DNA of 38,680 nucleotides from a virus. Shown here piece after piece: positions 18,389-37,969 of this stretch. The number at the start of each line of letters is the position of its first letter. The first letter of the stretch is position 1. Position numbers and translations under genes: made by a program. The notes below the pieces were generated by a model, which was not told where the DNA came from, searched no databases, and was given only the letters and a program-made list of their open reading frames with translations. The stretch spans positions 1 to 38,680 of IMG/VR virus record IMGVR_UViG_3300040810_000230; one strand, written 5' to 3'.

Positions 18389-19614
18389 ATACTAAGGACA
18401 AGCCAGAAGTAGTTTGTAACTTCTGCGGTAAAGGTAAGGCAGAAGTAGAGACATTAATTGTTAGTAATGATGTTGGAATATGCGACGAATGTACAGAGTT
18501 GTGTACTAACATTCTAGCAAAAGAAAAAGAGAAGTCGGGCAAAACATCGACTAGCCCTAAAATTAAAGAAGCACTAGATCCGTTAGCAATTAAAGAACAT
18601 TTAGACGAACATATTATAGGGCAAGACGAAGCCAAGACTGCTATTGCAGTTGCAGTAGTTAATCACTACAAGCGAGTATTCAACAATACAAACATTAAAC
18701 TAGACAAGAGTAACTTATTATTATTTGGTCCTACTGGATCTGGTAAAACACTACTAGCAAAAACAATAGCAGATTACCTCAACGTACCTTTTGTTATTAC
18801 AGATGCTACAAGTCTAACAGAAGCAGGTTATGTAGGAGAAGATGTTGAGTCTGTAATAGAACGTTTACTGGCAGAAGCAAACTTTGATGTTGAGAAATGC
18901 GAACAAGGTATAGTGTTTATCGACGAAATAGACAAAATTGCACGTAAGGGCGAGTCCAGTACTACTAGCAAAGACGTGTCAGGAGAGGGTGTACAGCAAT
19001 CTCTACTCAAACTAGTAGAAGGCACCAAGTGTAAGATAGCAGTTAAAGCCAGCAAGAAGATGGTTGTAAGCGACAGTGTCGAGATCGACACAGGTAACAT
19101 ATTGTTCATAGCAGGCGGTGCGTTTGTAGATTTAAATAAGATAATTCAAAAGAGAATAAATGCTAATGCAATCGGTTTTGGTAGTAAACTTAAAAATGGT
19201 GAAACTGATAGAAGTAAAATAATACACGAGGACTTTGTTAAGTTTGGTATGATTCCAGAGTTTACGGGCAGATTTCCTGTCATTGTGCATACAAATGACT
19301 TGACATTAGATGATTATGTCGCTATACTTAAGGAACCTAAAAACAACTTGTTGGCACAAATGAAGTTCTACTTTACAGTAGACAACATTAAGTTAAACTT
19401 TGACAGTGGCTCTTTAAGAGCTATTGCAGAGGAAGCAGTTAAACTTAAAGTTGGTGCTCGAGGACTAAAGGCTGTGATGGAAAAAGTATTACAGCCGTAT
19501 ATGTTTGAAATAACAGAGTTGAAAGCAAAACAGGCAAAGAGTATTACTATTACAGAAAAAGTTATTAAGGAAAATAAAAGGGCAACAATAAAATATGAGA
19601 TACAGAAATCGTAA
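18379..19614 (+). CDS. clpX: ClpX-type AAA+ unfoldase
   Basis: The 411-residue protein is full-length ClpX. The N-terminal zinc-binding domain has Cys13-x2-Cys16 and Cys35-x2-Cys38. Walker A is Gly-Pro-Thr-Gly-Ser-Gly-Lys-Thr at 117-124 and Walker B includes Asp182-Glu183. The Gly150-Tyr-Val-Gly pore loop that grips substrate is present, as are the arginine-finger region Phe-Thr-Gly-Arg-Phe and the sensor-2 block Gly-Ala-Arg-Gly-Leu. The ClpP-docking loop Ile265-Gly-Phe267 is intact, so it could dock a ClpP, probably the host's since none is seen here. The start could also be the ATG at 18385 (ATGA overlap). It sits with bS21, Hsp20 and ClpS, suggesting redirected host proteolysis. Confidence 0.95.
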   Translation: MSMNTKDKPEVVCNFCGKGKAEVETLIVSNDVGICDECTELCTNILAKEKEKSGKTSTSPKIKEALDPLAIKEHLDEHIIGQDEAKTAIAVAVVNHYKRVFNNTNIKLDKSNLLLFGPTGSGKTLLAKTIADYLNVPFVITDATSLTEAGYVGEDVESVIERLLAEANFDVEKCEQGIVFIDEIDKIARKGESSTTSKDVSGEGVQQSLLKLVEGTKCKIAVKASKKMVVSDSVEIDTGNILFIAGGAFVDLNKIIQKRINANAIGFGSKLKNGETDRSKIIHEDFVKFGMIPEFTGRFPVIVHTNDLTLDDYVAILKEPKNNLLAQMKFYFTVDNIKLNFDSGSLRAIAEEAVKLKVGARGLKAVMEKVLQPYMFEITELKAKQAKSITITEKVIKENKRATIKYEIQKS

Positions 19615-19942: not shown

Positions 19943-20374
19943 ATGACAAACTATAAACTTACCACATACGATTTACCTACAATTTCCAGATTCGGAATTG
20001 GCTTTGATAGACTTTTTGATGAACTTAACCGTTCAATGGAAGTTGGACAACAAGGCTACCCACCATACAACGTAGTAAAGCATAGTGACGAAGCATACAC
20101 TATTGAAGTTGCTGTGGCTGGATTTGGAGAGAATGACCTTAATGTCACAGTACATGAGGGCAAACTTCACATTGAAGGGGTAAAAGAAGACAAAGTGGAG
20201 CAAGATTATGTTTATCGTGGTCTTTCCAGCCGAAACTTTACAAGAACATTTAACTTAGCAGAACATGTTGAAGTTAAAAATGTAACTGTAGAGCAAGGCG
20301 TAATGCGTATTTCACTAGAACGTGAAGTACCAGAGGAAATGAAACCACAAAAACTTGCTATCACATTTAAGTAA
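19943..20374 (+). CDS. Small heat shock protein Hsp20 (IbpA-like)
   Basis: The 143-residue protein has the alpha-crystallin domain at about 37-127. The N-terminal arm includes Gly-Phe-Asp-Arg-Leu-Phe-Asp-Glu-Leu, as in IbpA/HspA. Domain blocks are Pro-Pro-Tyr-Asn-Val, Tyr-Thr-Ile-Glu-Val-Ala-Val-Ala-Gly-Phe, Leu-His-Ile-Glu-Gly and Gly-Val-Met-Arg-Ile-Ser-Leu. The C-terminal Leu-Ala-Ile tripeptide serves as the Ile-x-Ile-type oligomerisation tail. It holds unfolding proteins, host or virion, in a soluble state. Hsp20 genes are near-universal in T4-like cyanophages. It has its own promoter, leader hairpin and an AAGGAG ribosome binding site eight bases before the ATG. Confidence 0.95.
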   Translation: MTNYKLTTYDLPTISRFGIGFDRLFDELNRSMEVGQQGYPPYNVVKHSDEAYTIEVAVAGFGENDLNVTVHEGKLHIEGVKEDKVEQDYVYRGLSSRNFTRTFNLAEHVEVKNVTVEQGVMRISLEREVPEEMKPQKLAITFK

Positions 20375-23448: not shown

Positions 23449-23960
23449 CGCACATTGAAAAATTAAACTTACCAAAAATACCGGACACAGTAATAACCTC
23501 TTTACTGGAGCAAAATCCTGACTTAGGAAACTATAGTTATGTTTGCGAGCCAGCGTATAACGGTATAGCTCACTTTTCTTCTTATACTATTGATGTGTCT
23601 GCATTAAGTTGGTTTAAAGAAAATAACTTAGACAGTTATTTTTGGAACATACAAACTTTGAAAGACGGTACAAACTTAAATGCTCACAGAGATGATAGAC
23701 GCACACATGTTATAATGTACATAATAGATCCAGGTGGAGAAAATGTAAAAACTTGTTTTTATCATAAATTACTGGATAAAGAATACGAACCTATAAAACC
23801 TATCCCCAAAGAGGAACTAGAATTAGTATACGAAGAAGTACTGGAAGCCGGTAACTGGTATAAACTTTCAGTGCAAGACATTCATAGCGTTGAAAACTTA
23901 CAATCTACTAGATTGTGTTTAACTAGACAACTACCCGACGTTCCTTTAGATTTACTTTAA
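23445..23960 (+). CDS. 2OG-Fe(II) oxygenase-like protein, 171 aa
   Basis: The C-terminal half carries the facial triad of a double-stranded beta-helix oxygenase: His81-Arg-Asp83 in Leu-Asn-Ala-His-Arg-Asp-Asp, distal His147 in Gln-Asp-Ile-His-Ser-Val-Glu, and Arg156 about nine residues later, the usual 2-oxoglutarate-binding position. Such small enzymes hydroxylate proteins or small molecules in the cytoplasm and are frequent in marine phages. The two tandem paralogues upstream, on the same transcript, are possible substrates (inference). It converges with the reverse-strand gene, overlapping it by 9 bases. Confidence 0.75.
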   Translation: MTHIEKLNLPKIPDTVITSLLEQNPDLGNYSYVCEPAYNGIAHFSSYTIDVSALSWFKENNLDSYFWNIQTLKDGTNLNAHRDDRRTHVIMYIIDPGGENVKTCFYHKLLDKEYEPIKPIPKEELELVYEEVLEAGNWYKLSVQDIHSVENLQSTRLCLTRQLPDVPLDLL

Positions 23961-25202
23961 AATTTTTCTTAATTTGCTCCCAAGAGTTCCTGGACTGGAA
24001 TAAACACTATTAGCAAATACACATCTTTGATTATTTGGAATATCACTAAATTTTTCGTATTGTAGATTTTTGTGATAAGAGTGAATTTTTGTCAACTGAT
24101 TAGACTCTGCTAATGCTAAATGAAAGTTATCAACTAATTCTTTCCAAGCAATTTCTTCTAAGTTGTTATAGAAGTGATTAAAGTTGTAATCCAGAGTTGG
24201 TAGAATTTCTTCGTACATTTCCTTTTTTTCTTTTTCCGACAAATTACATATCTTGTTTAACTGTCCTACAACTTTTAGTATTCTAATATTAGGGTCATAT
24301 TCCTCATCGTAACTTTCATCGATGACATTGTCGAATGTTTTAAATCCGTAACTTTTTAAATATTTTAATGCACCAGGAGTACTTAATACTAAAAATGGCT
24401 GCCTTGCAACAATAGGTTTGAATATTTTTTCAGTTAAGTGAACCGTCTTTTCATAAAAACATGTTTCACTTACTACATGCCAAAATGCACTCGTCCATAC
24501 AGAATATTCTGGTTCTGCACTAGAGTCATCTTCACTATATAATGATGTTTGTACCCTGTGACTAGTCTTTACTTGGCTACAAAAACTAATTATATCTTGT
24601 CTAGTTTTAGAATTTAAATGCATGTTGTCTAATTCTTCTGACCATTCATCTATATTATAAGATACTATTCCATCACCGAGTAGTCCCTGTTTGTATAATT
24701 GAGATAGAAATATCAGTCGATATATCCTAGGTCCTTTGTAAAGATTATTTAGATTTATATAACTTGCTCCTTGCCATATATTATTAACTTTAGGAGCGTA
24801 CTCAATGGATCTAAACCAATCTAAACTTGCAAAAGCATGATAAAAATAATACCATTTTGATAGTTTTAATTTTTTACACAAAGCGTCAACTTTTGGACTG
24901 TGTAATTCACTTGTAGCAAATATTCCACCGTCTATCCCAATGTAATCGTTATTAAATTCTTTTGTAAAAATATTGTACATGTTAGCGACCGTATTATGAT
25001 CGTACACTGGTTCTTGATCATAAAAGAATACATTTTGCAAATTAAACAAAACCTGATTAGTATTAAAGATATCAGTATTCATTGTACTGATATCTTTTAG
25101 GTTGTTACATTTTCCAAATTCGTACAAAAATGAGCCAGAAAGACTATTTGGGCGTAGGAAATTAGCATTTATAATGTTGTAAATGTTGTCTACATTAAAC
25201 AT
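23952..25202 (-). CDS. Glycosyltransferase-like protein (GT10-type C-terminal motif)
   Basis: This 416-residue soluble protein has the C-terminal block His-Leu-Thr-Glu-Lys-Ile-Phe-Lys-Pro, Gln-Pro-Phe-Leu-Val-Leu and Gly-Phe-Lys-Thr-Phe, then Asp-Glu-Ser-Tyr-Asp. This resembles the nucleotide-sugar domain of fucosyltransferase/exostosin-type enzymes. The same block occurs in the gene at 34812, so the two are distant paralogues. The upstream half differs, as expected for the acceptor domain. It is the only long reverse-strand gene inside the window and starts back to back with the curli-like module. It could modify host lipopolysaccharide or the secreted repeat proteins (inference). Confidence 0.7.
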   Translation of the reverse strand: MFNVDNIYNIINANFLRPNSLSGSFLYEFGKCNNLKDISTMNTDIFNTNQVLFNLQNVFFYDQEPVYDHNTVANMYNIFTKEFNNDYIGIDGGIFATSELHSPKVDALCKKLKLSKWYYFYHAFASLDWFRSIEYAPKVNNIWQGASYINLNNLYKGPRIYRLIFLSQLYKQGLLGDGIVSYNIDEWSEELDNMHLNSKTRQDIISFCSQVKTSHRVQTSLYSEDDSSAEPEYSVWTSAFWHVVSETCFYEKTVHLTEKIFKPIVARQPFLVLSTPGALKYLKSYGFKTFDNVIDESYDEEYDPNIRILKVVGQLNKICNLSEKEKKEMYEEILPTLDYNFNHFYNNLEEIAWKELVDNFHLALAESNQLTKIHSYHKNLQYEKFSDIPNNQRCVFANSVYSSPGTLGSKLRKILK

Positions 25203-25263: not shown

Positions 25264-25713
25264 GTGAAATTCTTATTAACACTGATATTTATGGTGCCAG
25301 TACTAGTACTAGCAGATAATTTAACATTCAACTACAAAAACCCTGCCTTTAGCGGCATAGGGTATAGTGCCCACGTATTAACTATCGAGCAGTTGGAATC
25401 TAACCGTCGTAAAGACAATGAAAAAGCCGCAAAAGCACTACAGGACGAAGCAGACAGGGACTTGCGTTCTACTAATACATGGAAGTTTCAAAACAACTTA
25501 GAGTCTAGGATTTACAGTCAGCTGAGTAAGCAGATAAGTGATAGTTTATTTGGTGAAGGCTCAGCAGAGGACGCAGAGGGCGAAGTAACAACGCCATTTG
25601 GAGATACAGTAGCATGGTCTCGTATTAATGATGTTATAACTGTTACTGTGTCAGACAGCAACGGAGACGTTTTATCCACATTTTCTGTACCTGTAGGAGA
25701 TTTTGCTTTCTGA
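25264..25713 (+). CDS. csgF: Curli assembly factor CsgF homologue
   Basis: The 149-residue protein has a signal peptide ending Val-Leu-Ala (17) and a mature N-terminus Asp-Asn-Leu-Thr-Phe-Asn-Tyr-Lys-Asn-Pro-Ala-Phe-Ser-Gly. This closely follows E. coli CsgF (Thr-Phe-Gln-Phe-Arg-Asn-Pro-Asn-Phe-Gly-Gly), the peptide that inserts into the CsgG pore. A helical middle with Gln-Leu-Ser-Lys-Gln-Ile and a C-terminal strand region ending Thr-Val-Ser-Asp-Ser-Asn-Gly also fit. It tethers the curli fibre to CsgG at the cell surface. GTG start with GAGGGA ribosome binding site. Its stop overlaps the csgG start (TGATG), the same gene order as in E. coli csgFG. Confidence 0.9.
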   Translation: MKFLLTLIFMVPVLVLADNLTFNYKNPAFSGIGYSAHVLTIEQLESNRRKDNEKAAKALQDEADRDLRSTNTWKFQNNLESRIYSQLSKQISDSLFGEGSAEDAEGEVTTPFGDTVAWSRINDVITVTVSDSNGDVLSTFSVPVGDFAF

Positions 25714-26594
25714 TGAGAAATATATTAATACTCCTATTATGCTTGGTTATATCAGGTTGTGCTAGTTTGGCAGGACAAACTAAATTTGATGCACCTGAAA
25801 TAACACAAAGCCTAGAAGAGGAATTTAAGTCTATCCCGCCTCCCAAAGACGGTCATATATATGTTGCAGTATATGGATTTCAAGATAAAACTGGGCAACG
25901 TAAGCCCAGCGAAAGAATTGCACATATATCTACAGCAGTAACACAGGGAGCGGCTGACTGGGTAATCAAGAGCCTTAAAGAAGTTGGCGGCGGCACATGG
26001 TTTAAGGTAATTGAGCGTGTGGGGTTAGACAACCTTGCAAAAGAAAGACAGATTATTAGACAACAGCGTGAAACCGTAGATGACAAGAGAGCGTTGAAAC
26101 CACTTAAGTATGCAGGTATAATTTTAGAAGGAGCAATTATAGGATATGACAGTAATATAAAAACAGGAGGTAGTGGAGCTAGATACTTAGGTATAGGCGT
26201 GCAACAGGAATACAGGGAAGATATAATGACAATATCTATGCGTATTGTTTCTACACAAACAGGCGAGGTATTGGTAGCAGTTAGTGGAACTAAGACTATT
26301 TTAAGTTATGGACAAAGTTTTGGTGTGTTTAAGTTTATAGAAATGGGAACCGAAGCAGTAGAACTTGACGCAGGATCTTACACTAATGAACCAACAACAG
26401 TCGCACTTCAAAGAGCAATTGATGCGTGTATAATAGAAATAATCAAGCAGGGCAAAACGCATGGGTACTGGGATTACGAAAATCCAGTAACTGTGGGTTC
26501 TTCGGAACGAATAAATGAAGTTGCAAACGAGCTCAATGATGAGGAAATGTTACAAAAAGAGTTCGAAAAACAACTAAAAATGATAGAAAAGTAA
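25713..26594 (+). CDS. csgG: Curli secretion pore CsgG homologue (outer-membrane lipoprotein)
   Basis: The 293-residue protein is a full-length CsgG. The lipoprotein signal has Ile-Ser-Gly-Cys16. Blocks matching E. coli CsgG include Val-Ala-Val-Tyr-Gly-Phe-Gln-Asp-Lys-Thr-Gly-Gln, Ser-Thr-Ala-Val, Ile-Glu-Arg-x-Gly-Leu-x-Asn-Leu, Glu-Gly-(Ala)-Ile-Ile-Gly-Tyr-(Asp/Glu)-Ser-Asn, Gly-Gly-x-Gly-Ala-Arg-Tyr-x-Gly-Ile-Gly and Lys-Thr-Ile-Leu-Ser-Tyr. It should form the nonameric outer-membrane channel exporting amyloid subunits. Residues aligned with the E. coli constriction (Tyr51, Asn55, Phe56) look different here: Glu67, His71, Ile72. The C-terminus is a charged helix. Neighbours are CsgF and three repeat or accessory proteins. 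CsgE is not seen. Confidence 0.93.
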   Translation: MRNILILLLCLVISGCASLAGQTKFDAPEITQSLEEEFKSIPPPKDGHIYVAVYGFQDKTGQRKPSERIAHISTAVTQGAADWVIKSLKEVGGGTWFKVIERVGLDNLAKERQIIRQQRETVDDKRALKPLKYAGIILEGAIIGYDSNIKTGGSGARYLGIGVQQEYREDIMTISMRIVSTQTGEVLVAVSGTKTILSYGQSFGVFKFIEMGTEAVELDAGSYTNEPTTVALQRAIDACIIEIIKQGKTHGYWDYENPVTVGSSERINEVANELNDEEMLQKEFEKQLKMIEK

Positions 26595-26707: not shown

Positions 26708-27349
26708 ATGCGTATTTTAAGGACTATAAGCACGTTATTTGTTGCTGTGGTATGTAGTTCTAGTTTTGCTAACGATGTTTATATCGAACAAGCAGGTGAC
26801 AGTACTGATATTGATATCATTCAAAAGAATGGTACTAACACTTTGAATGACTCAACTGATGCCGCCACTATTAGCGGTGACAGTATAACGTTTAGTTTAA
26901 CACAGGACGGTAACTTGAACAATGCTGACGTGGAAATAGAAAACTCAGCAACATCTAGTAATGTTGATATCGACGTTGCAGGTGGAAGTAACGAAACTAA
27001 TGTTGGTATCGACGGTGCATCAAGCACAACAGTAGACATTGACGTTACAGGTGATTCCAACTGGGTATCAGTATGTGGAGCCAATGACGGTGCCAGTGTG
27101 GCTGCGGCGGAATGTTCTACAGGTATTACCGACGGTTCCACTAGTAACACAGCAAACATTACTGGTGATAGCAACATTGTTAATATTGAAGCAAGCGGTG
27201 CTAGTCAGACCAACTCGGTTACAATAGGTGCAGATGCAACGGACATTAGTGATAACAACACAGTTAATATTAGTAATGACGTAACAGGTGCAGATGTTAT
27301 TATTGACATGGACGGACAGGATAATACCGTAGATGTTACAGTTCAGTAG
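26708..27349 (+). CDS. Secreted curlin-like repeat protein (CsgA-like)
   Basis: The 213-residue protein has a signal peptide ending Ser-Phe-Ala (21). The mature N-terminus is Asn-Asp-Val-Tyr-Ile-Glu-Gln-Ala-Gly-Asp-Ser-Thr-Asp-Ile-Asp-Ile-Ile-Gln. The rest is irregular Asn/Asp/Thr/Val-rich repeat units of about 20 residues (Gly-Asp-Ser-Asn-x-Val-x-Ile, Gly-Ala-Ser-x-Thr-x-x-Val-x-Ile) with almost no Lys or Arg. This matches the design of curlin beta-arch repeats (Gln/Asn ladders), though more Asp-rich and less regular than CsgA. It is the likely fibre subunit exported through the CsgG pore encoded just upstream. AGGGAG ribosome binding site; 17-base overlap with the FecR gene. Confidence 0.8.
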   Translation: MRILRTISTLFVAVVCSSSFANDVYIEQAGDSTDIDIIQKNGTNTLNDSTDAATISGDSITFSLTQDGNLNNADVEIENSATSSNVDIDVAGGSNETNVGIDGASSTTVDIDVTGDSNWVSVCGANDGASVAAAECSTGITDGSTSNTANITGDSNIVNIEASGASQTNSVTIGADATDISDNNTVNISNDVTGADVIIDMDGQDNTVDVTVQ

Positions 27350-28424
27350 GACATTATTTGTCATATTATTTTTTGTCTCTTCAACTGTTTTAGCAAAGGG
27401 GATAGGAAATGTCACGGAACAGACTGGTCCTGCTGAAATCAGCAGAAAAAAAGAAACACTGCCATCTGAAAAAGGCTCTGAAGTCTTTATGCAAGATGCT
27501 ATCCAAACTACGAAAAGCAAGTTAGGGATAACGTTTGAGGACGACACTAAAGTAAAGATGACAGAACAAAGCAAACTCGTTATAGACGAGTTTCTTTACG
27601 ATCCAGGAAATAAAAAGCCCGGTAAACTGGGAATGAAGGTAGCAATAGGAACAGTTAGGTATGCGTCTGGTAAGATTGCCAAAGACAATGCAGAAAATGT
27701 AAACATACAGACACCAACTGCTACTATTGCTGTTCGAGGAACAGACTTTACAATGACTGTAGACGAGATAGGTCGCAGTCTTGTTATACTACTACCAAGT
27801 TGCCCTACTAGTAATGAGATAGATTGTTACGTAGGCGAGATCGAAGTTATGACTGATATGGGTGCTGTGTTAATGAATCAAGCATTCCAAGCCACATTAG
27901 TAACTAGTAGAAACAGTATGCCTACTGAACCAAAACTTATAGATATAAGTGAGGCACTGATAGATAATTTTTTAATTGTTAGTCCACCAGAAGAAGTTAG
28001 ACTTGCACAAGAAGAACTTGAGCGTAGTAACAACCCACTAGATAAAGACTTATTGGAATTTGACGAACTAGACGTAAATGAATTAGACCAAGAAGATGAG
28101 CTCGCTAACAACTACGAACTAGACATTAACTTTTTGGACTTTGAATTTTTAGATAATATGTTGGACCTAACTACAATACAGTTAGACAGAGACGAACTAG
28201 AAACTAACGAAGTGCTACCAACAATACAGCAGTACAGTTGGATAATTTGGTATGCAAACGAAGAAGAAATTTTTATGAGAAGCGAACGTCCTCCACACGT
28301 GGCAGAGATAAGTTTACCTAGAGAAACAGAAGGTAATGTTTATATCGTGCAGGACGATATTCCAGCAGACATATCAGTACAAGGTGGATCAAGTGTTACG
28401 ATTGATATTATTCAGTCTCAGTAG
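27333..28424 (+). CDS. Exported FecR-domain protein with curlin-like C-terminal tail
   Basis: The 363-residue protein has a signal peptide ending Val-Leu-Ala (21). A FecR-type domain follows at about 25-170: Gly-Ser-Glu-Val-Phe-Met-Gln-Asp, Thr-Phe-Glu-Asp-Asp-Thr-Lys-Val-Lys-Met, Val-Asn-Ile-Gln-Thr-Pro-Thr-Ala-Thr-Ile-Ala-Val-Arg-Gly-Thr-Asp. A very acidic Leu/Asp/Glu-rich middle (about 220-290) follows, and the last 30 residues carry Val-Tyr-Ile-Val-Gln and Ile-Asp-Ile-Ile-Gln, the same motif that opens the curlin-like protein upstream. It could be a periplasmic chaperone, nucleator or fibre anchor. A classical FecR anti-sigma role is unlikely because no sigma factor or receptor is linked. 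Overlaps both neighbours. Confidence 0.78.
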   Translation: MLQFSRTLFVILFFVSSTVLAKGIGNVTEQTGPAEISRKKETLPSEKGSEVFMQDAIQTTKSKLGITFEDDTKVKMTEQSKLVIDEFLYDPGNKKPGKLGMKVAIGTVRYASGKIAKDNAENVNIQTPTATIAVRGTDFTMTVDEIGRSLVILLPSCPTSNEIDCYVGEIEVMTDMGAVLMNQAFQATLVTSRNSMPTEPKLIDISEALIDNFLIVSPPEEVRLAQEELERSNNPLDKDLLEFDELDVNELDQEDELANNYELDINFLDFEFLDNMLDLTTIQLDRDELETNEVLPTIQQYSWIIWYANEEEIFMRSERPPHVAEISLPRETEGNVYIVQDDIPADISVQGGSSVTIDIIQSQ

Positions 28425-29568
28425 TCTACTGTTTTATTTGACTCCAGCAATTGCTGACCTCTACTACGATACCTATCAGGGAACAGGTTCCTATCCAAGT
28501 TTTCCTGGGAATGGCGGAAGTTTAACATACCCTACAAAATTAAGTTCAGGCACGGTGAGCAGTTTGAATTACAATTGGGGTGGTGGTAATGTATTAGACT
28601 CGGGCAGAAATCAACAAGTAATAGTCAACTTCTATGGATACATCACTATCCCAGGCACAGGTAGCCAGGACATACAATTCTATCTGTATGCTGATGATGG
28701 CGTGTATATGAAGTTGGATAACACCGTGGTAATCAACGACTGGCAAGAACAGGCTCCCGGCACGTGGAACTACGTTTCAACAGACCAAACACTCACAGGT
28801 GGACAAACTTATTATATTGATATGTGGTGGTATGAAAACGGTGGCGGCGCCGCAGTTAAGTTATATTGGGATCAATCAGGATCAGTTGCATTGGTGCCTA
28901 GCTCGGCATATTCATTGACCGATCCTAGTGCATCTGGTGCACCTTCAGCAACACCATCATATTCTTCTGGTCCAACTTCTGCACAACAAACTAGAATAAA
29001 CAGTGCTGTATCTGCGGTTAATTCAGGTGAAAGTAATAATATCGATATAGATATAGATGGCGATGATAATGATGTAATGATAACACAAGCAGGTGAGCCC
29101 AGTTATCTGCTATTGAACATTACAGGAAATTTAAACTCCGTGGATATTGACCAAAATGCTACTACTGTAGGCACATCATATGGGCATTACACAGAAGCAG
29201 AGATATTAGGTAATAGTAATAGTATAGATTTGTTACAAACAGGCAGTGGAAACAAATCGGCATTTATTGATATTGCTGGTAACAGTAACACGGCAAATCT
29301 GATACAAAAAGACAGTGGCAACCACTATCTAATGTTAGATTTTATAGGTGATGGCAATACTGCCACAGTTACGCAGGAAGGTTCAGGTGACCATGCGGCT
29401 ACTATTGAACTTACTGAAAGTGGAGGCGCCTGGACTTTTGGTCTTACTCAAAGTGGATCAACAAATAAAACTTACAGTTTACCGCATTCAATGAGCGATG
29501 GTTCTACAGTGACTGGAACTTGTTCAACGCCAGCAGGATGCTCTTTAACTATCACACAAGGTGACTAA
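28393..29568 (+). CDS. Exported PA14-domain protein with curlin-like repeats
   Basis: The GTG at 28393 is chosen because AAGGTGG lies just upstream and it gives a clean signal peptide ending Ala-Ile-Ala (21). An ATG at 28336 would add 19 residues and spoil it. The mature 370 residues have a PA14-type domain at about 25-165 (Tyr-Ala-Asp-Asp-Gly-Val-Tyr-Met-Lys-Leu-Asp, Tyr-Tyr-Ile-Asp-Met-Trp-Trp-Tyr-Glu-Asn, Val-Lys-Leu-Tyr-Trp), a Ser/Pro/Ala linker, then curlin-like repeats (Gly-Asn-Ser-Asn-Ser-Ile-Asp-Leu-Leu-Gln-Thr-Gly and relatives) to the C-terminus. PA14 domains bind glycans. The fusion suggests an adhesive tip or coat built into the amyloid fibre. It overlaps the FecR gene by 32 bases and closes the module. 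Confidence 0.8.
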   Translation: MLRLILFSLSSLLFYLTPAIADLYYDTYQGTGSYPSFPGNGGSLTYPTKLSSGTVSSLNYNWGGGNVLDSGRNQQVIVNFYGYITIPGTGSQDIQFYLYADDGVYMKLDNTVVINDWQEQAPGTWNYVSTDQTLTGGQTYYIDMWWYENGGGAAVKLYWDQSGSVALVPSSAYSLTDPSASGAPSATPSYSSGPTSAQQTRINSAVSAVNSGESNNIDIDIDGDDNDVMITQAGEPSYLLLNITGNLNSVDIDQNATTVGTSYGHYTEAEILGNSNSIDLLQTGSGNKSAFIDIAGNSNTANLIQKDSGNHYLMLDFIGDGNTATVTQEGSGDHAATIELTESGGAWTFGLTQSGSTNKTYSLPHSMSDGSTVTGTCSTPAGCSLTITQGD

Positions 29569-29603: not shown

Positions 29604-29690
29604 AATGCATGACTAACTTAGTGGCCTCTTTCGACGCTCATCCCACTTTAAATATTCTGCGTGTCATTGTTAACATTAAGGACAACAACA

Positions 29691-30194
29691 ATGGCTAATC
29701 AACCAAGACAATACAAGTACGTAAGTACAAAAGAATATGTAGATCAGTTTCCCTGTGCATATAGGCAATGGCGGGCTGACAGTCACTGCAATCTAATACA
29801 CGGCTATGCGTTTAGTATGCGTTTCTTTTTTGGAACCGACAACTTAGACGTTAGAAACTGGGTAGCAGACTACGGTGGACTAAAAGAACTAAAACAAGTA
29901 TTACAAGATCAATTTGACCATACACTACTGGTTGCTGAAGATGATCCAGAACTAGAAATATACAAGCAACTGCAAGCAAAGAAGTTGGCTAAACTGACCA
30001 TACTGCCAAGACTTGGTTGTGAAGGACTAGCAGACCAATTGTACAAATATGTAAATGGTGTGTATATCCCAGACATGTGGGGTCAAGCAGAAGCAGATAG
30101 ACTTTGGTGTTACAGGGTAGAAGTACGTGAAACACAAAGCAACATGGCTTGGCGTGAAGGTCATAGAGAATGGAACGAGGATCTGTTTGAATAA
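29691..30194 (+). CDS. 6-pyruvoyl-tetrahydropterin synthase/QueD-family protein
   Basis: The ATG at 29691 with AAGGA at 29678-29682 gives 167 residues. An upstream in-frame start at 29661 lacks a ribosome binding site. PTPS/QueD blocks are present: Cys33-x3-His37-Gly, Val-Ala-Asp-Tyr-Gly-Gly-Leu-Lys, Gln-Phe-Asp-His-Thr-Leu-Leu-Val, Cys-Glu-Gly-Leu-Ala-Asp-Gln-Leu and Tyr-Arg-Val-Glu-Val-Arg-Glu-Thr. Family members make 6-carboxy-tetrahydropterin for queuosine or 7-deazaguanine DNA modification, or biopterin. By eye the usual His-Gly-His zinc pair is His37-Gly-Tyr39, and the first zinc His is Tyr24, so metal binding may differ. No queC, queE or dpdA is seen in this window. Confidence 0.82.
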   Translation: MANQPRQYKYVSTKEYVDQFPCAYRQWRADSHCNLIHGYAFSMRFFFGTDNLDVRNWVADYGGLKELKQVLQDQFDHTLLVAEDDPELEIYKQLQAKKLAKLTILPRLGCEGLADQLYKYVNGVYIPDMWGQAEADRLWCYRVEVRETQSNMAWREGHREWNEDLFE

Positions 30195-30624: not shown

Positions 30625-31025
30625 TGACATACAAAATTTTAACAGAAAATTCAGAAGACAAACTTAACGTCTACGACATAGGTGGTGCTACAGTTAAAGA
30701 CAATGAGACATATCGTGTAAAAGATAACACAACTCTTAATAATTTAGTAGTAAGTTCTACTGAGCTTAAGTCTATGCAAAGTACTCGAGGTCATAAGCAC
30801 CAAGGGCAGGAAGAAGTGTATCATTTCATTAGTGGATATGGAAAGATGGAACTGGACGACAGACAGTTTCATGTAAAAGGAGGTGACATCGTATTGATTC
30901 CGGATGGTTCCTTCCATCGAGTACATAACACTAGTGAGCATGGTGCCTTATATTTTATCTGTGTGTTAACTGTAATAAAGGAAAATGGATTTACTAACTA
31001 TAGTAATGATGTTGAAATGGGATAA
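30624..31025 (+). CDS. Cupin-domain protein
   Basis: The 133-residue protein contains a single cupin barrel. Motif 1 is Gly-His-Lys-His-x-Gly-Gln-Glu-Glu-Val-Tyr-His-Phe-Ile-Ser-Gly-x-Gly. Motif 2 is Gly-Gly-Asp-Ile-Val-Leu-Ile-Pro-Asp-Gly-Ser-Phe-His-Arg-Val-His-Asn. The His-x-His, Glu and second-motif His needed for metal binding are all present. Such cupins are sugar-phosphate isomerases, dioxygenases or binding proteins. Being coupled to radical SAM, SDR and glycosyltransferase-like genes, a role in sugar or cofactor conversion is plausible (inference). TAATG coupling on both ends. Confidence 0.85.
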   Translation: MTYKILTENSEDKLNVYDIGGATVKDNETYRVKDNTTLNNLVVSSTELKSMQSTRGHKHQGQEEVYHFISGYGKMELDDRQFHVKGGDIVLIPDGSFHRVHNTSEHGALYFICVLTVIKENGFTNYSNDVEMG

Positions 31026-32524
31026 TGTTTGCTGTAATACTTACCGTTCCCCGGGTAGCGGCGCTGAGACCAAGTGCGGCTCCGGCTATAATAAAAAGTA
31101 TAATAAAAAGTAAAGGACTAGAAAGTCAGGTACTGGATATTAATCTAGATTTTCACGACCAATTTGGAAGTCGTTTTTCGGAACAATCTTATAACACAAT
31201 CGATGACTATTTCTTTAATCATCTGAATCAACTTGATCAACATGACCAAACTGTATACACAGAATGGATGCAAGACTGGGTTGATCGGATTATACAGATT
31301 AATCCGCAATATCTTTTTATAAGTGTGTTTACTTGGCAAGCACAACGATTTACTAGAGACTTCTTAACATTGTGGAAAACACAAAGTAATATACCTGCGA
31401 TTATTGGTGGGCAGGGCATGACTAAAGAAGAAAACGGAAGTTATTCTAGCAAGCCTGAGTTTGCGCACGAAATGAAGGCGCAAGGGCTAATTGCGCACTG
31501 GATCAGAGGCGAGGCTGAAACCACTATCCCTGCGATAATTGACGGAAAGTTTGATACACCGGGCATTGATACAGACACCTTGGCAGATAGGAGTGATGTT
31601 AACTCGCATGGTTTCTTAGACTTCTCAGACTTTGATATAAAACGATATCACAGTGGGTACAAACAAGGTGTGTTACCTGTAGAAACCAGCAGAGGTTGTG
31701 TGCGAAATTGTGTATTTTGTGATATCCCAACCTGGCACGGAAAGTTTAGGTACAAAAACGGTACTAAACTCAGCAACGAACTAATACATTACTACGAAAA
31801 GTATCAAGTGAAAGACTTTTTCTTTCACGACGCATTATGCAACGGTAGTGTAAAAGACTTTAAGTTGTTTAATCATAACTTAATGGACTACTACACACAA
31901 AACAATTTACCAGAGCGACACTTTAAATACAGCAGTCATTATATTGTTCGTAGTGAACGAATAATGCCTGAAGAAGATTTTAAGTTTATGGGATCAGCAG
32001 GTGCCGAATGTATGGTAATTGGGGTCGAGTCCGGGAGTGATCGTGTTAAGGCAGACATGCGAAAAGGCTTTAACAACGCTGACTTAGATTATAATATGAA
32101 AATGTTTAGCAAGTACGGGATCACTGTGTACTTGTTACTGATTGTAGGATTTCCTACAGAAACTAGAGACGACTTTAACGAAACACTAACGATGTTAAAA
32201 CGTTACCAGCCTTATGTTGCTGACGGGACTGTGATTGGTGTTAACCTTGGCACAACATTAACCATTGAAGAAGGATCACCGATATACACAGATTATTCAA
32301 AACTAAACATAGTAGGCACAAATGGTAATAGACCGCAAGGTCCGGATTGGCATTGCGAAACAAACCCAACTTTGACCTATAAAGAGCGTATTATGCGCAG
32401 AATCGAAGCACAAGAATATGCTACTAGCTTAGGTTATACATTCTGGAAAGGCGATGATCAATTGAAGTTACTAATGGATAACTATACCACAAGATTACAC
32501 AAACTAGCAGGAGTAATACACTAG
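31025..32524 (+). CDS. B12-binding-type radical SAM enzyme
   Basis: The 499-residue protein has an N-terminal cobalamin-binding-like Rossmann region at about 1-190 (Pro-Arg-Val-Ala-Ala-Leu-Arg-Pro, Tyr-Leu-Phe-Ile-Ser-Val-Phe-Thr, Ile-Ile-Gly-Gly-Gln-Gly). The radical SAM core follows, with Cys225-x3-Cys229-x2-Cys232 for the 4Fe-4S cluster in Ser-Arg-Gly-Cys-Val-Arg-Asn-Cys-Val-Phe-Cys-Asp. SAM-binding strands include Ile-Gly-Val-Glu-Ser-Gly-Ser and Leu-Leu-Ile-Val-Gly-Phe-Pro-Thr-Glu-Thr. The family contains methylases, ring-contracting and sulfur-inserting enzymes. The substrate cannot be told, and the usual cobalamin His is not obvious, so B12 use is uncertain. TAATG/TAGTG coupling with both neighbours. 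Confidence 0.88.
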   Translation: MFAVILTVPRVAALRPSAAPAIIKSIIKSKGLESQVLDINLDFHDQFGSRFSEQSYNTIDDYFFNHLNQLDQHDQTVYTEWMQDWVDRIIQINPQYLFISVFTWQAQRFTRDFLTLWKTQSNIPAIIGGQGMTKEENGSYSSKPEFAHEMKAQGLIAHWIRGEAETTIPAIIDGKFDTPGIDTDTLADRSDVNSHGFLDFSDFDIKRYHSGYKQGVLPVETSRGCVRNCVFCDIPTWHGKFRYKNGTKLSNELIHYYEKYQVKDFFFHDALCNGSVKDFKLFNHNLMDYYTQNNLPERHFKYSSHYIVRSERIMPEEDFKFMGSAGAECMVIGVESGSDRVKADMRKGFNNADLDYNMKMFSKYGITVYLLLIVGFPTETRDDFNETLTMLKRYQPYVADGTVIGVNLGTTLTIEEGSPIYTDYSKLNIVGTNGNRPQGPDWHCETNPTLTYKERIMRRIEAQEYATSLGYTFWKGDDQLKLLMDNYTTRLHKLAGVIH

Positions 32525-33060
32525 TGCAAGTTAGTTTAGATATTGGATTCAGCGTAGGTAGGAAACTAGGCGACCCTGATGTTAAAATATTAATTGACGA
32601 CTATGTTGTGTTGTACGAAGGATCTGCTGTTGACCAGTTCTCTAGAGTCATTGACTTAAATGCTGGTGAACACGAACTTAAGATCGTGCATCACGGAAAG
32701 ACAGATCAAGATCATGTATTAGACGATCAGGGTAATATTCTAGTAGATAAATTTATTAATATTGATACTATGGTCATTGATGGAATTAAACTGACCGATA
32801 GGGAATTACACACAGGAGAATTCTGGCCAGTATACAGTTTAAGTTACGTTGAGGATATGCAGGAGTTACCAGAAAGTATTTGCCCTAACTTGTATCTGGG
32901 TCACAATGGAACTTGGAGATATAAATTTTTTGCTCCTTTTACTGAGTGGATAATTCGTGAGCGCAAACAAGGACCGCAACTTGACGATACTATTTTTAAA
33001 AGTAGTCAGCAAATACTGGAAGATGCAAAGAATTTCTTCAAAGACATACGGGAATTATGA
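32524..33060 (+). CDS. Beta-sandwich-type phage protein, 178 aa
   Basis: A GTG start overlaps the radical SAM stop (TAGTG). The N-terminal 95 residues alternate strands typical of a small beta-sandwich (Val-Ser-Leu-Asp-Ile-Gly-Phe, Val-Lys-Ile-Leu-Ile-Asp-Asp-Tyr-Val-Val-Leu, Gly-Glu-His-Glu-Leu-Lys-Ile-Val-His-His-Gly). A conserved-looking Leu-Gly-His-Asn-Gly-Thr-Trp block and a helical tail follow. Its opening strands resemble carbohydrate-binding-type domains, and a similar architecture (Gly-His-Gly, Trp) is seen in the reverse-strand gene at the right end. Glycan binding is a guess that fits the cluster. Confidence 0.6.
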   Translation: MQVSLDIGFSVGRKLGDPDVKILIDDYVVLYEGSAVDQFSRVIDLNAGEHELKIVHHGKTDQDHVLDDQGNILVDKFINIDTMVIDGIKLTDRELHTGEFWPVYSLSYVEDMQELPESICPNLYLGHNGTWRYKFFAPFTEWIIRERKQGPQLDDTIFKSSQQILEDAKNFFKDIREL

Positions 33061-33083
33061 AAATTACTTTTGAAATTGAATGA
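33057..33083 (+). other. Eight-codon frame, possible remnant of a duplicated beta-sandwich gene
   Basis: ATGA coupling at the end of the beta-sandwich gene opens a frame Met-Lys-Ile-Thr-Phe-Glu-Ile-Glu and then a stop. Its pattern mirrors the start of the preceding protein (Met-Gln-Val-Ser-Leu-Asp-Ile-Gly). It may be the stub of a lost tandem copy or only a translational relay to the next gene. Confidence 0.3.
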
Positions 33084-33089
33084 ACACTA

Positions 33090-34199
33090 ATGTTAACTTA
33101 TAATTCTGTCGACGAGTATCAAATTGAAATAACCACATACTGCAATGCGGCTTGTCCGCAATGTCCACGCAATCTCTGTGGTTACGGAAAGAATCCACAC
33201 ATGCCGCTAGTGCATTTAGATGCGGATGTTATTGATAATGCATTTACTCCTGATCTGTGTAATAGACTAAGACAAGTGTTTTTTTGTGGCAGTTACGGTG
33301 ATCCCATTATGCATCCTAAGTTCTTGGACATACTAAGAAAGTTCAGACAGAAGAATCCAACACTATGGTTGTACTTTCACACCAACGGAGGTGTACACAA
33401 CAAGGACTACTGGCAAGAAGTAGCAGATATAATGGCAGGCTACGGACAGATAGACTTTGGTATTGATGGTCTAAGTGATACACTAGATTTGTACCGTAGA
33501 AATGTAGACTATGATAAGGTTATACGCAATGCCAGGGCTTTTATTGATCGTGGTGGTCGTGCGCAGTGGAACTATATAGTGTTCAAGCATAACGAACATC
33601 AAGTTGAACAAGCAAAGCAACTAGCACAAGAGTACGGCTTTTTTAACATCTTGATACGCAAAACTGGGCGGTTCTTTGATCATAAAAATCTGGTTGAATT
33701 CAACAGTTGGCCTGTGTATAATAGCAAGGATGATGTAGCATACCAGTTGGAGTTGCCTACACAAGAGCAATACAGAAACAACAGTATGCTAGGCTTGACT
33801 GGATTAAAGACAGAGTATCCGGATATTAAGGATTACTTTGCTAAAACAGAAATTAGATGTGATGCAGAAATAGGAAACAAGGTGGCAGTAAATGCAGAAG
33901 GCGTTGTGTTGCCTTGTAACTTTTTTAATCACAATTTGTATGATTTAAGATTTCACGATACAGATACACTGCCAAGGGCTAATGCACTCAGTGGACAGCC
34001 TAATCAAGTTAAAGAATTCTTAGATCAATACGGATTAAACAATTTGTCTATTAAAAACAACAGTTTAGCAGACATATTCAACAACAAGTTTTGGCAAGAC
34101 TTGCACAGCAGTTTCACAGGCAATAGACTGTTTGAGTGTGCAATGACTTGCGGTAAACGTTTAACAAAGGTCTGGGACCAAGGAGGCAATCGTAGATGA
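33090..34199 (+). CDS. Radical SAM/SPASM enzyme
   Basis: The 369-residue protein has the radical SAM cluster motif Cys18-x3-Cys22-x2-Cys25 in Thr-Tyr-Cys-Asn-Ala-Ala-Cys-Pro-Gln-Cys-Pro, the Gly-Ser-Tyr-Gly-Asp-Pro segment and Phe-Gly-Ile-Asp-Gly-Leu. The C-terminal SPASM-type region has Val-Ala-Val-Asn-Ala-Glu-Gly-Val-Val-Leu-Pro-Cys-Asn-Phe-Phe and further cysteines (Glu-Cys-Ala-Met-Thr-Cys-Gly-Lys) for an auxiliary cluster. SPASM enzymes modify peptides or sugars. No obvious precursor peptide is seen nearby, which slightly favours a sugar or amino-acid substrate. It overlaps the SDR gene by 4 bases. Confidence 0.88.
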   Translation: MLTYNSVDEYQIEITTYCNAACPQCPRNLCGYGKNPHMPLVHLDADVIDNAFTPDLCNRLRQVFFCGSYGDPIMHPKFLDILRKFRQKNPTLWLYFHTNGGVHNKDYWQEVADIMAGYGQIDFGIDGLSDTLDLYRRNVDYDKVIRNARAFIDRGGRAQWNYIVFKHNEHQVEQAKQLAQEYGFFNILIRKTGRFFDHKNLVEFNSWPVYNSKDDVAYQLELPTQEQYRNNSMLGLTGLKTEYPDIKDYFAKTEIRCDAEIGNKVAVNAEGVVLPCNFFNHNLYDLRFHDTDTLPRANALSGQPNQVKEFLDQYGLNNLSIKNNSLADIFNNKFWQDLHSSFTGNRLFECAMTCGKRLTKVWDQGGNRR

Positions 34200-34780
34200 A
34201 AGTATTAGTAACAGGCGGTAACAGAGGGTTGGGAAAGCACTTAGTAGAAGTGTTTGATACTGCTGACGGAATCAGTAGAGCTGACGGGTTTGATATTACA
34301 AAAAACATAGACGACATCGCGGCTCGCAGTATAGATTATGATGTAGTTGTTAACAACGCATTTGATGGTCCTCCACAAGAAGATTGGGCTAACTTTGGCC
34401 AGACTAACTTGTATATAAAAATTTACGACACATGGAAAAAACATAACAAATCAGGTTATATTTTTAATATCGGTAGTGTAGGTGAGCAGGGTATTGTTGC
34501 TCCCGAGCCACGTTGGGAAACTTATAGAGTCAGCAAGGCAGCACTAGCACATGCTAGTAAACAAGGTACGCAAGCATTTAAGCAAAATGCAGTATCTTTT
34601 AAAACTACCTTGATTACCCCTGACAGGTTAGATACAGAACTAAGTCGTAGCAGACCAAATTGGACTGGTAACGGAATAAACCTAGTAGACATTTCAAATT
34701 TTATCAAGTATGCTACACAAACACAAGATAATACTTGCATAGAAGAAATAACTTTTTATTGTGCGTTAGATTATCAATAG
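34196..34780 (+). CDS. Short-chain dehydrogenase/reductase
   Basis: The 194-residue protein has the SDR nucleotide motif Thr-Gly-Gly-Asn-Arg-Gly-Leu-Gly (6-13), Val-Asn-Asn-Ala (52-55), catalytic Ser94 in Asn-Ile-Gly-Ser, and Tyr110-x3-Lys114. It is short for an SDR (usually about 250), with a reduced region between the cofactor and catalytic motifs and a shortened C-terminus, so the substrate pocket may be minimal. It should oxidise or reduce a hydroxyl/keto group with NAD(P)H, probably on a sugar intermediate given the glycosyltransferase-like gene 31 bases downstream. Confidence 0.88.
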   Translation: MKVLVTGGNRGLGKHLVEVFDTADGISRADGFDITKNIDDIAARSIDYDVVVNNAFDGPPQEDWANFGQTNLYIKIYDTWKKHNKSGYIFNIGSVGEQGIVAPEPRWETYRVSKAALAHASKQGTQAFKQNAVSFKTTLITPDRLDTELSRSRPNWTGNGINLVDISNFIKYATQTQDNTCIEEITFYCALDYQ

Positions 34781-34811
34781 AGTTACTACAGGATAAACAC
34801 CACGTAACAGA

Positions 34812-35936
34812 ATGGTAAAAAGATTCGCACATAAAATATTTACACTTGTGCCACCTGCTAGTGCAATAGATGTTTATGGTGACTGGTTAGGTTTAGATCA
34901 TGTAAACTGGCAATTTACAGACAACTATCAGGAAGCACTAGCACAGCCTTACAAGATTGCTATGATGCCTGCGCTGTTTAACGTCAATGGCAGTTACACC
35001 TATAGAGCAAAGTTTGCTAAGATGGACTTTAGTAAATTTGATCTTGTTGTACTAAGTGACATAGAATGCCATAGTCAAGATTATATATTAGAAAATTGTA
35101 TTAAACCTGCTGGTATTACGAACTATCTAGTGGCGGTTGGCGGAATGTACAGCGAACTTACTGATCCTGACTTTATATACAGACCTTGGTGGATGTTTCA
35201 TCATCGTCAACTGAATCACATACACATTACACAATCTATCAAGAAGCGTGAGTTTTTGTTTGATGCATTACTGGGCGCACGTAAATTGCATCGTAGTTAT
35301 GTAATGGCACGTTTTCAGCAACGTCCTGATTTGTTGTCAAAGTCCATTGTAAATTACAGAGATACGTTTATTAACCACTGGGGCAACGACCCTTCCTACT
35401 TATATGATCATGTAAACAAAGTACTAGATGGCAAGCAATTACAGTGGCCTTATGTAAGTGAGAACTTTACAGAACAACAAACACAAGATTTAGAACCACA
35501 TCAAATCAGTGAAGTTACACCTTGGAATATATACGAAAAGACACACTACAGTATATGCTGTGAAAGTTTTAGTAATAATCCAGATGACACAAATCCAGGA
35601 CCTTTCTTTCTAACTGAGAAGACTGCTAAAATGTTTATGGCGCAACGTATGTTTATAATGTTTGCACCACAACATACATTACGGTTTATAAAAAGCCTAG
35701 GCTTTGACACATTCGATTCTATTATAGACGAAAGTTACGATGACATAGCAGACCCTAGAGAAAGATTTGACAGAGCTTTTGATCAAGTGGAATATCTTGC
35801 TGAACAAGATCCCACAGAAGTCTACGAGAAAGTATGGCCTATCACACAATATAACTTGTGGATGTTTATAGACCTTATTAAAAAAACTAAGGAAGCAATG
35901 TTGGATAAGTTACTGTATAAAATAAATACTTTATAA
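34812..35936 (+). CDS. Glycosyltransferase-like protein (GT10-type C-terminal motif)
   Basis: The 374-residue soluble protein ends in the block Phe-Leu-Thr-Glu-Lys-Thr-Ala-Lys-Met, Arg-Met-Phe-Ile-Met-Phe and Ser-Leu-Gly-Phe-Asp-Thr-Phe, then Asp-Glu-Ser-Tyr-Asp. The reverse-strand gene at 23952 shares it, and it is reminiscent of fucosyltransferase-type nucleotide-sugar domains. The N-terminal half is unrelated by eye. It closes the cupin/radical SAM/SDR series and overlaps the cyclase start (TAATG). The likely role is transferring a modified sugar onto host surface glycan or a phage structure (inference). Confidence 0.72.
   Translation: MVKRFAHKIFTLVPPASAIDVYGDWLGLDHVNWQFTDNYQEALAQPYKIAMMPALFNVNGSYTYRAKFAKMDFSKFDLVVLSDIECHSQDYILENCIKPAGITNYLVAVGGMYSELTDPDFIYRPWWMFHHRQLNHIHITQSIKKREFLFDALLGARKLHRSYVMARFQQRPDLLSKSIVNYRDTFINHWGNDPSYLYDHVNKVLDGKQLQWPYVSENFTEQQTQDLEPHQISEVTPWNIYEKTHYSICCESFSNNPDDTNPGPFFLTEKTAKMFMAQRMFIMFAPQHTLRFIKSLGFDTFDSIIDESYDDIADPRERFDRAFDQVEYLAEQDPTEVYEKVWPITQYNLWMFIDLIKKTKEAMLDKLLYKINTL
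35921..35928 (+). promoter_or_regulatory. Putative T4-type late promoter (AATAAATA) before the cyclase
   Basis: AATAAATA lies inside the end of the glycosyltransferase-like gene, 7 bases before the ATG at 35936. If used, the cyclase mRNA would be almost leaderless. The motif could also be coding coincidence (Lys-Ile-Asn-Thr). Confidence 0.45.
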
Positions 35937-37969
35937 TGTTCAAAAAGTTATTGTTGAGTCCCTGGACCGCTGTTATTACGTTAATAATATGCGCATATAT
36001 TAGATTAGTAAATCCTAGTTTTGTAGAAAGTGTTAGGCTAACATATTTCGACACTTTAATTACAAGCCAAGAGCCCGTACAAAACAACATACACACAATT
36101 AATATAGATGATCCTGCTCTAAACGAGATAGGTGCGTGGCCCGTGCCACGTAGTTACTATGCTGACTTAATTGCTGACTTGTATGGTAACAGGAATGCAG
36201 GTTTGGTGGTACTAAACGTTCTCATGCCTGAAAGCGCAGAAGGCGATAACGAACTTGCTGAAATAATGGAGACGTTTCCTGTTATATTAACAAGTGTGCC
36301 TAGTCAATGGAGTAAGAATACACCCAAGAAGCCAGGTGCTGTAATCCTTAATCCAGACTACATGAACACAATTATAAACTATCCTGGTATAATTGCAAAC
36401 ACACCTGAATTAGAACAACGTGCATATGGTGTTGGTATTGCCAGCACACTGCCTGAGATAGATGGTGTTACTAGACGTATACCGTTAATAAGTGCTGTGG
36501 GAGAAAACTTATATCCTAGCGTAGCATTAGAGATACTGAGATCAGCGGCAGGTGATACAACATTCCAAGTAAAACTGTTTGAACTGGGTGTAGAGAAAAT
36601 GCGTATACCTGCATTTGATACAATACCCACAGACCAACTTGGACGCATATGGATAGACTGGAGTCAAAAAAGTTTTAGCCACAGTTTAACTAGCATGCCA
36701 GATGACTTTGGTGGCGGCATCGTTATTATTGGTCCTACAGCGGCAGGTACTAATCAGCCCATAGCAACAGCACTGGGAGGTAGTTGGCCTCATGAATTAC
36801 AAAGTGCAGTTGTTGGCACAATGTTTAATGGTGTCAACATTGAACGTTATGACTGGGCAGATGGTGCAGAACTATTAGCACTATTAGTTTTGGGTGTTTT
36901 GGCAATAGCAATATCTTATTGGACATATGGCTTTGTGCCAGTTATAGCAGTCGTAGCAGGCACGTATTATGCGGCACAACATTATTATGCAGAACAGAGA
37001 TTATTATTTGATATTACAGCAATAATATTTGCTTTAGTGTTGACCTATATACACGCATATACAGTAAAGTTTCTTAAAGAGTTTTATCAGAAGCAACAAA
37101 TTAAGCGACAGTTTGGAACTTACATCAGTAAGGAACTTGTTGCTGAATTACAGAAACATCCTGAAAAAATGCAGTTAGGTGGTGACACACGTAACATGAC
37201 ATTTCTGTTTTGTGACATTAGAGGATTTACACCTATTAGTGAACAATACAAAACAGATCCGCAAGGTCTAACACAACTTATTAACAAGTTCCTAACACCT
37301 ATGACTAATATAATTATGGAGCACAAAGGAACCATCGATAAGTATATGGGAGATTGTATTATGGCGTTTTGGAATGCGCCGTTGGAGGTAAATGGGCATG
37401 AACAAAAAGCCGTATTGGCAGCGCAAGACATGGTTAATGGAGTTAGGAGACTCAATGAAGAACTGTCCAAAGATAATTTACTACCTATTAACATTGGTAT
37501 CGGTATTAATACTGGTGCCTGTGTCGTGGGTAATATGGGCTCTGATCAAAGGTTTGACTACAGTGTACTCGGCGACGCTGTCAATCTTGGAAGCCGTCTC
37601 GAAGGTCAATCCAAGTCGTACGGAGTCATCACAGTTATCGGAGAAGAAACTGCACGATCTGTAACAGAAGTGCAAATGGTAGAACTGGACTTAATTGCTG
37701 TAAAAGGCAAAGATGTTCCTGTTCGAATTTTTACACCCGTAACATCAGCAACAGACGAAGAACTTAAAAAACATAAAGAATATCTCACGGCATACAGACA
37801 AAGGGAGTGGGCCCAGGCTAAGAGAGTTGCTGGTGGTAATAAGTTAGCGTTCGGAGGGGAACTTGAAAAGTACTATAAACTTATGAGTGAACGCATAACG
37901 GATCTTGAGAAGTCAGATATCAACGACTTGGAAACTTGGGACGGGGTGTATAGGGCTACAACAAAATAA
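35936..37969 (+). CDS. CHASE2-sensor class III adenylate cyclase
   Basis: The 677-residue membrane enzyme has an N-terminal transmembrane helix (about 8-25). A periplasmic CHASE2 domain follows (about 28-300; Phe-Asp-Thr-Leu, Ile-Asp-Asp-Pro-Ala-Leu-Asn-Glu-Ile-Gly-Ala-Trp-Pro-Val-Pro-Arg). Three transmembrane helices lie at about 308-375 and a class III cyclase domain at about 418-610. Key residues are intact: metal-binding Asp427 (Cys-Asp-Ile-Arg-Gly-Phe) and Asp473, adenine-selecting Lys469 and Asp541, transition-state Asn550 and Arg554. It should make cAMP inside the host in response to an external signal. CHASE2-cyclases are common in bacteria. I do not know of a characterised phage one. 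Start coupled (TAATG). Confidence 0.93.
   Translation: MFKKLLLSPWTAVITLIICAYIRLVNPSFVESVRLTYFDTLITSQEPVQNNIHTINIDDPALNEIGAWPVPRSYYADLIADLYGNRNAGLVVLNVLMPESAEGDNELAEIMETFPVILTSVPSQWSKNTPKKPGAVILNPDYMNTIINYPGIIANTPELEQRAYGVGIASTLPEIDGVTRRIPLISAVGENLYPSVALEILRSAAGDTTFQVKLFELGVEKMRIPAFDTIPTDQLGRIWIDWSQKSFSHSLTSMPDDFGGGIVIIGPTAAGTNQPIATALGGSWPHELQSAVVGTMFNGVNIERYDWADGAELLALLVLGVLAIAISYWTYGFVPVIAVVAGTYYAAQHYYAEQRLLFDITAIIFALVLTYIHAYTVKFLKEFYQKQQIKRQFGTYISKELVAELQKHPEKMQLGGDTRNMTFLFCDIRGFTPISEQYKTDPQGLTQLINKFLTPMTNIIMEHKGTIDKYMGDCIMAFWNAPLEVNGHEQKAVLAAQDMVNGVRRLNEELSKDNLLPINIGIGINTGACVVGNMGSDQRFDYSVLGDAVNLGSRLEGQSKSYGVITVIGEETARSVTEVQMVELDLIAVKGKDVPVRIFTPVTSATDEELKKHKEYLTAYRQREWAQAKRVAGGNKLAFGGELEKYYKLMSERITDLEKSDINDLETWDGVYRATTK

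Follow-up and report, generated by a model that had tools for sequence, protein, structure and literature searches.

The curli module and its cyclase gene

The window, meaning the whole stretch of DNA analysed here, is a 38.7-kb IMG/VR fragment that holds a CHASE2 class III nucleotidyl cyclase gene and, upstream of it on the same strand, all five of its curli module partners. The first gene in the module (25264–25713, +) encodes a CsgF-like curli extracellular chaperone with a signal peptide (PF10614, E 1.6e-12). It is followed by the gene for the outer-membrane curli pore CsgG (25713–26594, +), a lipoprotein with the lipobox ISGC that was identified by PF03783 (E 1.6e-54) and by its phage relatives. 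The next ORF (26708–27349, +) encodes a first curlin-like protein of 213 aa with a signal peptide and degenerate N/D/Q-rich repeats. A Pfam search with this protein gave no match; its place in the module equals that of the curlin-associated genes in HTVC008M and in Melnitz, and matches to it are found in 25 phage loci. The final two partners are a FecR-domain periplasmic protein with a signal peptide (27333–28424, +; PF04773, E 4.7e-9; phrog_37870, E 2e-91) and a second curlin-repeat protein with a PA14 domain (28336–29568, +; PF07012, E 3e-11; PF07691, E 3e-9).

Seven ORFs lie between the second curlin gene and the cyclase, encoding a PTPS-like protein, a cupin, two radical-SAM proteins, a 178-aa protein, a short-chain dehydrogenase and a 374-aa protein with no assigned function. 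The 374-aa gene (34812–35936, +), also found in a 289-kb relative, lies directly 5' of the cyclase; its stop codon and the start codon of the cyclase overlap in the sequence TAATG, and translational coupling of the two genes is possible. It is a distant paralogue (phmmer E 1e-14) of an ORF at 23952–25202 (−), the pair lying either side of the curli module, and a Pfam search of both gave no match. The PTPS/QueD-like gene (29661–30194), directly 3' of the curlin-PA14 gene, is common to the 289-kb relative and missing from the remaining cyclase loci that the first scan covered. Approximately 3.9 kb at 30945–34818, encoding the radical-SAM, 178-aa and dehydrogenase proteins, is missing from the same relative. 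Elsewhere in the window are genes for a phage ClpX-like unfoldase with a zinc finger (18379–19614) and a small Hsp20 chaperone (19943–20374). No tRNA genes were found in the window, and an Rfam search gave no match.

The cyclase gene (35936–37969, +) is a complete, open reading frame with an ATG start and a product of 677 aa. An N-terminal transmembrane helix (residues ~9–25) precedes the CHASE2 domain (~30–310), three further transmembrane helices (~308–326, ~333–354 and ~361–380), a helical linker, the catalytic domain (419–600) and a C-terminal helical tail. Pfam identified CHASE2 (PF05226, residues 16–323, E 1e-30), placed between the N-terminal and the further helices as in a sensor, and Guanylate_cyc (residues 419–593, E 4e-19). 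This bears out the sensor-membrane-cyclase architecture described in the initial annotation. PHROG 35576 covers the protein end to end (E 6e-215), and this full-length similarity, together with the location beside csgF, csgG, curlin and FecR genes, identifies it as a module cyclase of that family. An AlphaFold2 model built with the family alignment as input has a mean pLDDT of 88.7. The catalytic part of the model resembles Pseudomonas aeruginosa CyaB (3r5g, TM-score 0.87 by target) and a second solved adenylyl cyclase, Spirulina platensis CyaC. Taken as a whole, the model aligns from end to end with an uncultured phage protein (TM-score 0.93). Against the closest relative dN/dS is 0.08 for the gene and 0.065 for its catalytic part, which indicates strong purifying selection. 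The gene encodes a genuine, selected enzyme of an already known phage module.

The initial annotation knew of no characterised phage CHASE2 cyclase, but the protein is not new to phages. It is already annotated in phages HTVC008M and Melnitz and has been described as belonging to the curli module of pelagiphages (PMC9599517), and the search for phage homologues found relatives in at least 598 IMG/VR stretches. CsgF and CsgG were reported in pelagimyophages by Zaragoza-Solas et al. 2020 (PMC7029224) and in Melnitz by Buchholz et al. 2022, who left the cyclase undiscussed and saw no cell clumping (PMC9004378), so curli production by the module stays putative. Wittmers et al. 2022 placed FecR and an adenylate cyclase within the phage curli module, found the curli and FecR genes expressed in metatranscriptomes, and inferred that the module came from Alphaproteobacteria (PMC9599517). 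Among csgG-baited phage loci that extend 8 kb or more downstream, FecR is present in 40/40 and the cyclase in 37/40.

A 289-kb contig, G705, is collinear with window positions 1 to 38573 (pieces of 68–87% identity) and carries the cyclase in the same place, which excludes a chimeric contig at this gene. A DNA-level search of the phage collection with the opening 25 kb of the window gave no match. G705 encodes a T4-type gp23 capsid protein (E 1e-99), and gp23 of this type is found on several large module contigs (204, 218, 289 and 364 kb). NrdA is nearest to phages of 340–370 kb, among others, and the ClpX matches include phages of 470–550 kb. Judged by these genes, the window most likely stems from a jumbo myovirus lineage. 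That jumbo phages carry the curli-cyclase module is new here and shows that the module extends beyond the pelagiphages, from which it was described.

Active-site residues and the DKDDSR variant

Alignment places the catalytic core codons D427, K469, D473, S543, N550 and R554 at 37214–37597 (+). Five of the six residues named in the initial annotation (D427, K469, D473, N550 and R554) stand; Asp541 as the adenine selector does not. The CyaB motif mDYTiiG aligns with fDYSvlG of the window cyclase, so the adenine-selecting position is Ser543, which is aligned to the CyaB Thr and lies two residues beyond D541. Across the cyclase family column 541 is variable and Y542 invariant. The metal-binding Asp residues (D427, D473) and the transition-state residues (N550, R554) are those of class III, and K469 with a Ser/Thr-type selector is the mark of class IIIb. 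With the pattern DKD-S-NR, the window protein is inferred to be a class IIIb adenylyl cyclase with 3',5'-cAMP as its putative product, and the earlier proposal of a phage enzyme that would make cAMP in answer to something periplasmic is supported as a prediction.

Among 161 aligned copies, 112 have the pattern DKD-S-NR, 42 DKD-T-NR and seven DKD-D-SR, the S/T-N-R residues being kept in 154/161. The DKD-D-SR copies of this set occur only in phages (7/80 phage copies). A further 70 complete phage copies, which were gathered by the CHASE2 half alone and share a few contigs with the 161-copy set (under different locus names), comprise 48 DKD-D-SR, 12 DKD-S-NR and 10 DKD-T-NR. In this DKDDSR class, to which the Melnitz domain belongs, Asp replaces Ser543 and Ser replaces Asn550, with loss of the transition-state Asn; both metal Asp residues, the Lys and the Arg are kept in every complete phage copy aligned. 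A phage-only DKDDSR variant dominates this CHASE2 clade, which is new here. Copies with these two substitutions could be weakly active or altered in their activity. A bacterial source for this catalytic type was sought and rejected: the best bacterial matches are only 33–37% identical, and the ten that were readable all have S/T and Asn.

Histories of the sensor and catalytic domains

In the CHASE2 tree the window copy and six others (L002, L003, L004, L007, L010 and L019) form one clade with support 100, and the same seven are scattered in the catalytic tree. The groups for each topology test were taken from the other domain's tree. Forcing the seven together in the catalytic tree was rejected (AU p 2e-74), as was the reverse test on CHASE2, in which L083, L019 and L007 were grouped by catalytic domain (p 8e-31). 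CHASE2 distances show no correlation with catalytic distances over 57 loci (rho −0.03), even though both domains lie in one polypeptide. By these trees and distances the CHASE2 and catalytic domains have separate histories, with outputs swapped beneath one sensor lineage; this is also new here. Phage CHASE2 domains over other outputs were not found, save for proteins cut off at contig ends and one or two with a split frame.

Over the same 57 loci FecR and CHASE2 distances correlate at rho 0.40 and those of CsgG and FecR at 0.55. With CsgG removed, the FecR-CHASE2 value falls from 0.40 to 0.27 and the FecR-catalytic value from 0.24 to 0.07. A FecR gene also lies less than 1 kb from the CHASE2 cyclase in 20 of 79 bacterial loci, which were picked by cyclase similarity with L084 left out, and FecR matches elsewhere in these stretches number seven; csgG was found in 0/79. 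Taken with the phage FecR and cyclase counts, the presence of FecR beside bacterial cyclases that have no csgG makes FecR-CHASE2 look like an older bacterial sensor pair that was later joined to curli genes. This neighbourhood in bacteria that have no curli is likewise new here. In Burkholderia, an operon of FecR and a CHASE2 kinase bears on biofilm formation (PMC5192318). Four loci (L138, L158, L160 and L161) encode, a few kb from the CHASE2 cyclase, a second CHASE2 protein of ~860–890 aa; having no cyclase domain, these are probably CHASE2 kinases.

The whole module is also found in two freshwater Caulobacteraceae MAGs (L084 and L231), in the order csgF-csgG-curlin-curlin-FecR-CHASE2 cyclase, and the best bacterial match to the window cyclase, at 46% identity, is a Caulobacteraceae copy. 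The module of ~6 kb (L084:5995–12052 and L231:4241–10261) is 87% identical between the two and has unrelated flanks at different sites, so the curli-FecR-cyclase module moves as a unit in bacteria too. Its presence here qualifies the published statement on bacteria (PMC9599517) and is new. In the CHASE2 tree L084 is placed within or next to the phage clade (support 100). Typical Caulobacteraceae curli operons were considered as donors and rejected, since FecR and the cyclase are missing in 20/22 csgF loci, judged over the stretch read and some on short contigs; the exceptions are L231 and L084.

Proposed role and comparison with known systems

The favoured reading, which we hold to be moderately probable, is that the cyclase gene provides both sensor and output for a phage type VIII secretion (curli) module and forms part of a cAMP relay from the outer membrane to the cytoplasm. 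By homology, CsgG and CsgF would form the outer-membrane pore with the curlin-repeat proteins as cargo. The secreted periplasmic FecR may then report the state of the pore, the cargo or an outer ligand to CHASE2, the periplasmic domain of the inner-membrane cyclase, which would set the activity of a dimeric class IIIb enzyme that makes 3',5'-cAMP during infection. E. coli FecR, which passes a signal from a receptor in the outer membrane on to the inner membrane, offers an analogy for the phage protein. What the analysis shows directly is the domains, the intact catalytic and adenine-site residues, the conserved set of genes, the purifying selection and the bacterial FecR-CHASE2 neighbourhood. 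Gene order and the weak covariation of distances point to a FecR-CHASE2 interaction, and the cAMP product, FecR as the physical partner and the direction of signalling are likewise putative.

The initial annotation expected the cAMP to control host CRP-type regulation, and a csgD-like route has been suggested for the phage cyclase (PMC9599517). The prediction of an adenylyl cyclase is in keeping with such an action, CRP-type domains are widespread in other bacteria, as the control genomes show, and the host of the jumbo phage may possess CRP. Against this stands the scarcity of a receptor, which is also new here. A search of 31 phage records, many of them fragments and the complete HTVC008M and Melnitz included, gave no cNMP_binding domain, and the control genomes were positive. 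Among SAR11-like genomes, the type of host known for related phages, PF00027 (cNMP-binding) is present in only 2/60 and missing in the other 58, where gaps in the assemblies could conceal some receptors. A check for CRP-like sites, proposed with the initial claim, gave 18 in the window against 25.8 expected, with no enrichment. A CRP hijack thus lacks a receptor in the known hosts, and the reading appears quite unlikely. The 60 SAR11-like genomes, whose SAR11 identity is an inference, are the family of a SAM-V-bearing genome (0.8–1.6 Mb, 28% GC in two stretches sampled); the SAM-V search found nothing in the first 24 small genomes and succeeded in a larger draw. PF00211 is missing in 58/60 of them, and both SAR11-like contigs with a class III cyclase (L336 and L337, from assemblies G850 and G814) carry the csgF/csgG/FecR/cyclase module and are probably phage DNA within these assemblies. 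In these 60 genomes the SAR11-like family shows no class III cyclase of its own.

It was also proposed that the product could swamp cyclic-nucleotide immune signalling, of which Pycsar is an example, or act as a decoy for it, and PADLOC PycC models do match the catalytic domain (best E 4e-28). These matches reflect a fold common to every class III cyclase, however, and the residues at the adenine site are of the purine type. The companions of the gene are curli genes rather than anti-defence genes, and no PycTM/PycTIR-type effector was found among the nine neighbouring genes scanned, as a Pycsar assignment would call for; counter-defence is accordingly very improbable. An anchoring role, in which the protein is mainly a structural or sensory membrane component of the curli module and its catalysis is secondary or decaying, would suit the DKDDSR copies without the transition-state Asn (7/80 and 48/70) and the free exchange of catalytic domains seen in the correlation of −0.03. 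It seems unlikely all the same, given the metal Asp, Lys and Arg residues retained throughout the complete phage copies, the fully intact window copy with its low catalytic dN/dS, and the restriction of cyclase-less phage CHASE2 to truncated or split frames.

Extending the relay reading, phages may install the whole chain, from the outer-membrane pore through FecR and CHASE2 to the cyclase, in hosts that possess no class III cyclase and no CRP receptor, with the nucleotide acting through an unrecognised receptor and the DKDDSR class using an altered mechanism or another cyclic nucleotide; this is offered tentatively, as a possible but rather unlikely extension. Curli modules are abundant among marine phages and still await an explanation of their purpose. 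The placement of the sensor pair, the swapped output and SAR11-like genomes without a CRP receptor narrow the question to one measurable thing, namely the identity of the cyclic nucleotide that increases during infection and of whatever binds it. Worth following are the exchange of domains, the class with Ser in place of Asn and the missing receptor of the CRP type.

Among known systems, P. aeruginosa CyaB and S. platensis CyaC share the fold and active-site pattern of the window cyclase but differ in their sensor domains. Pycsar PycC has the class III fold in common with it, whereas no Pycsar effector gene was found next to the window cyclase, which carries purine-type selector residues. The S. 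meliloti CyaD1/CyaD2/CyaK type likewise combines CHASE2 with a class III cyclase; these enzymes respond via an outer-membrane protein, and their output runs through Clr, a CRP-family protein (PMC13001267). Bacterial CHASE2 cyclases in general are often near FecR, and the 79 examined are without csgG, unlike the phage module. The Caulobacteraceae modules, which lie among ordinary bacterial genes at two different chromosomal sites, have nearly the same order as the window, but both curlin genes precede FecR. The pelagiphage T8SS cyclases HTVC008M AGE60353 and Melnitz gp104 have the same architecture over their full length (40% and 36% identity), and their modules share the order csgF-csgG-curlin-FecR-curlin and end in the cyclase. 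Compared with these, the window represents a jumbo-phage lineage with extra genes between the second curlin gene and the cyclase, and its catalytic domain belongs to another branch than that of Melnitz.
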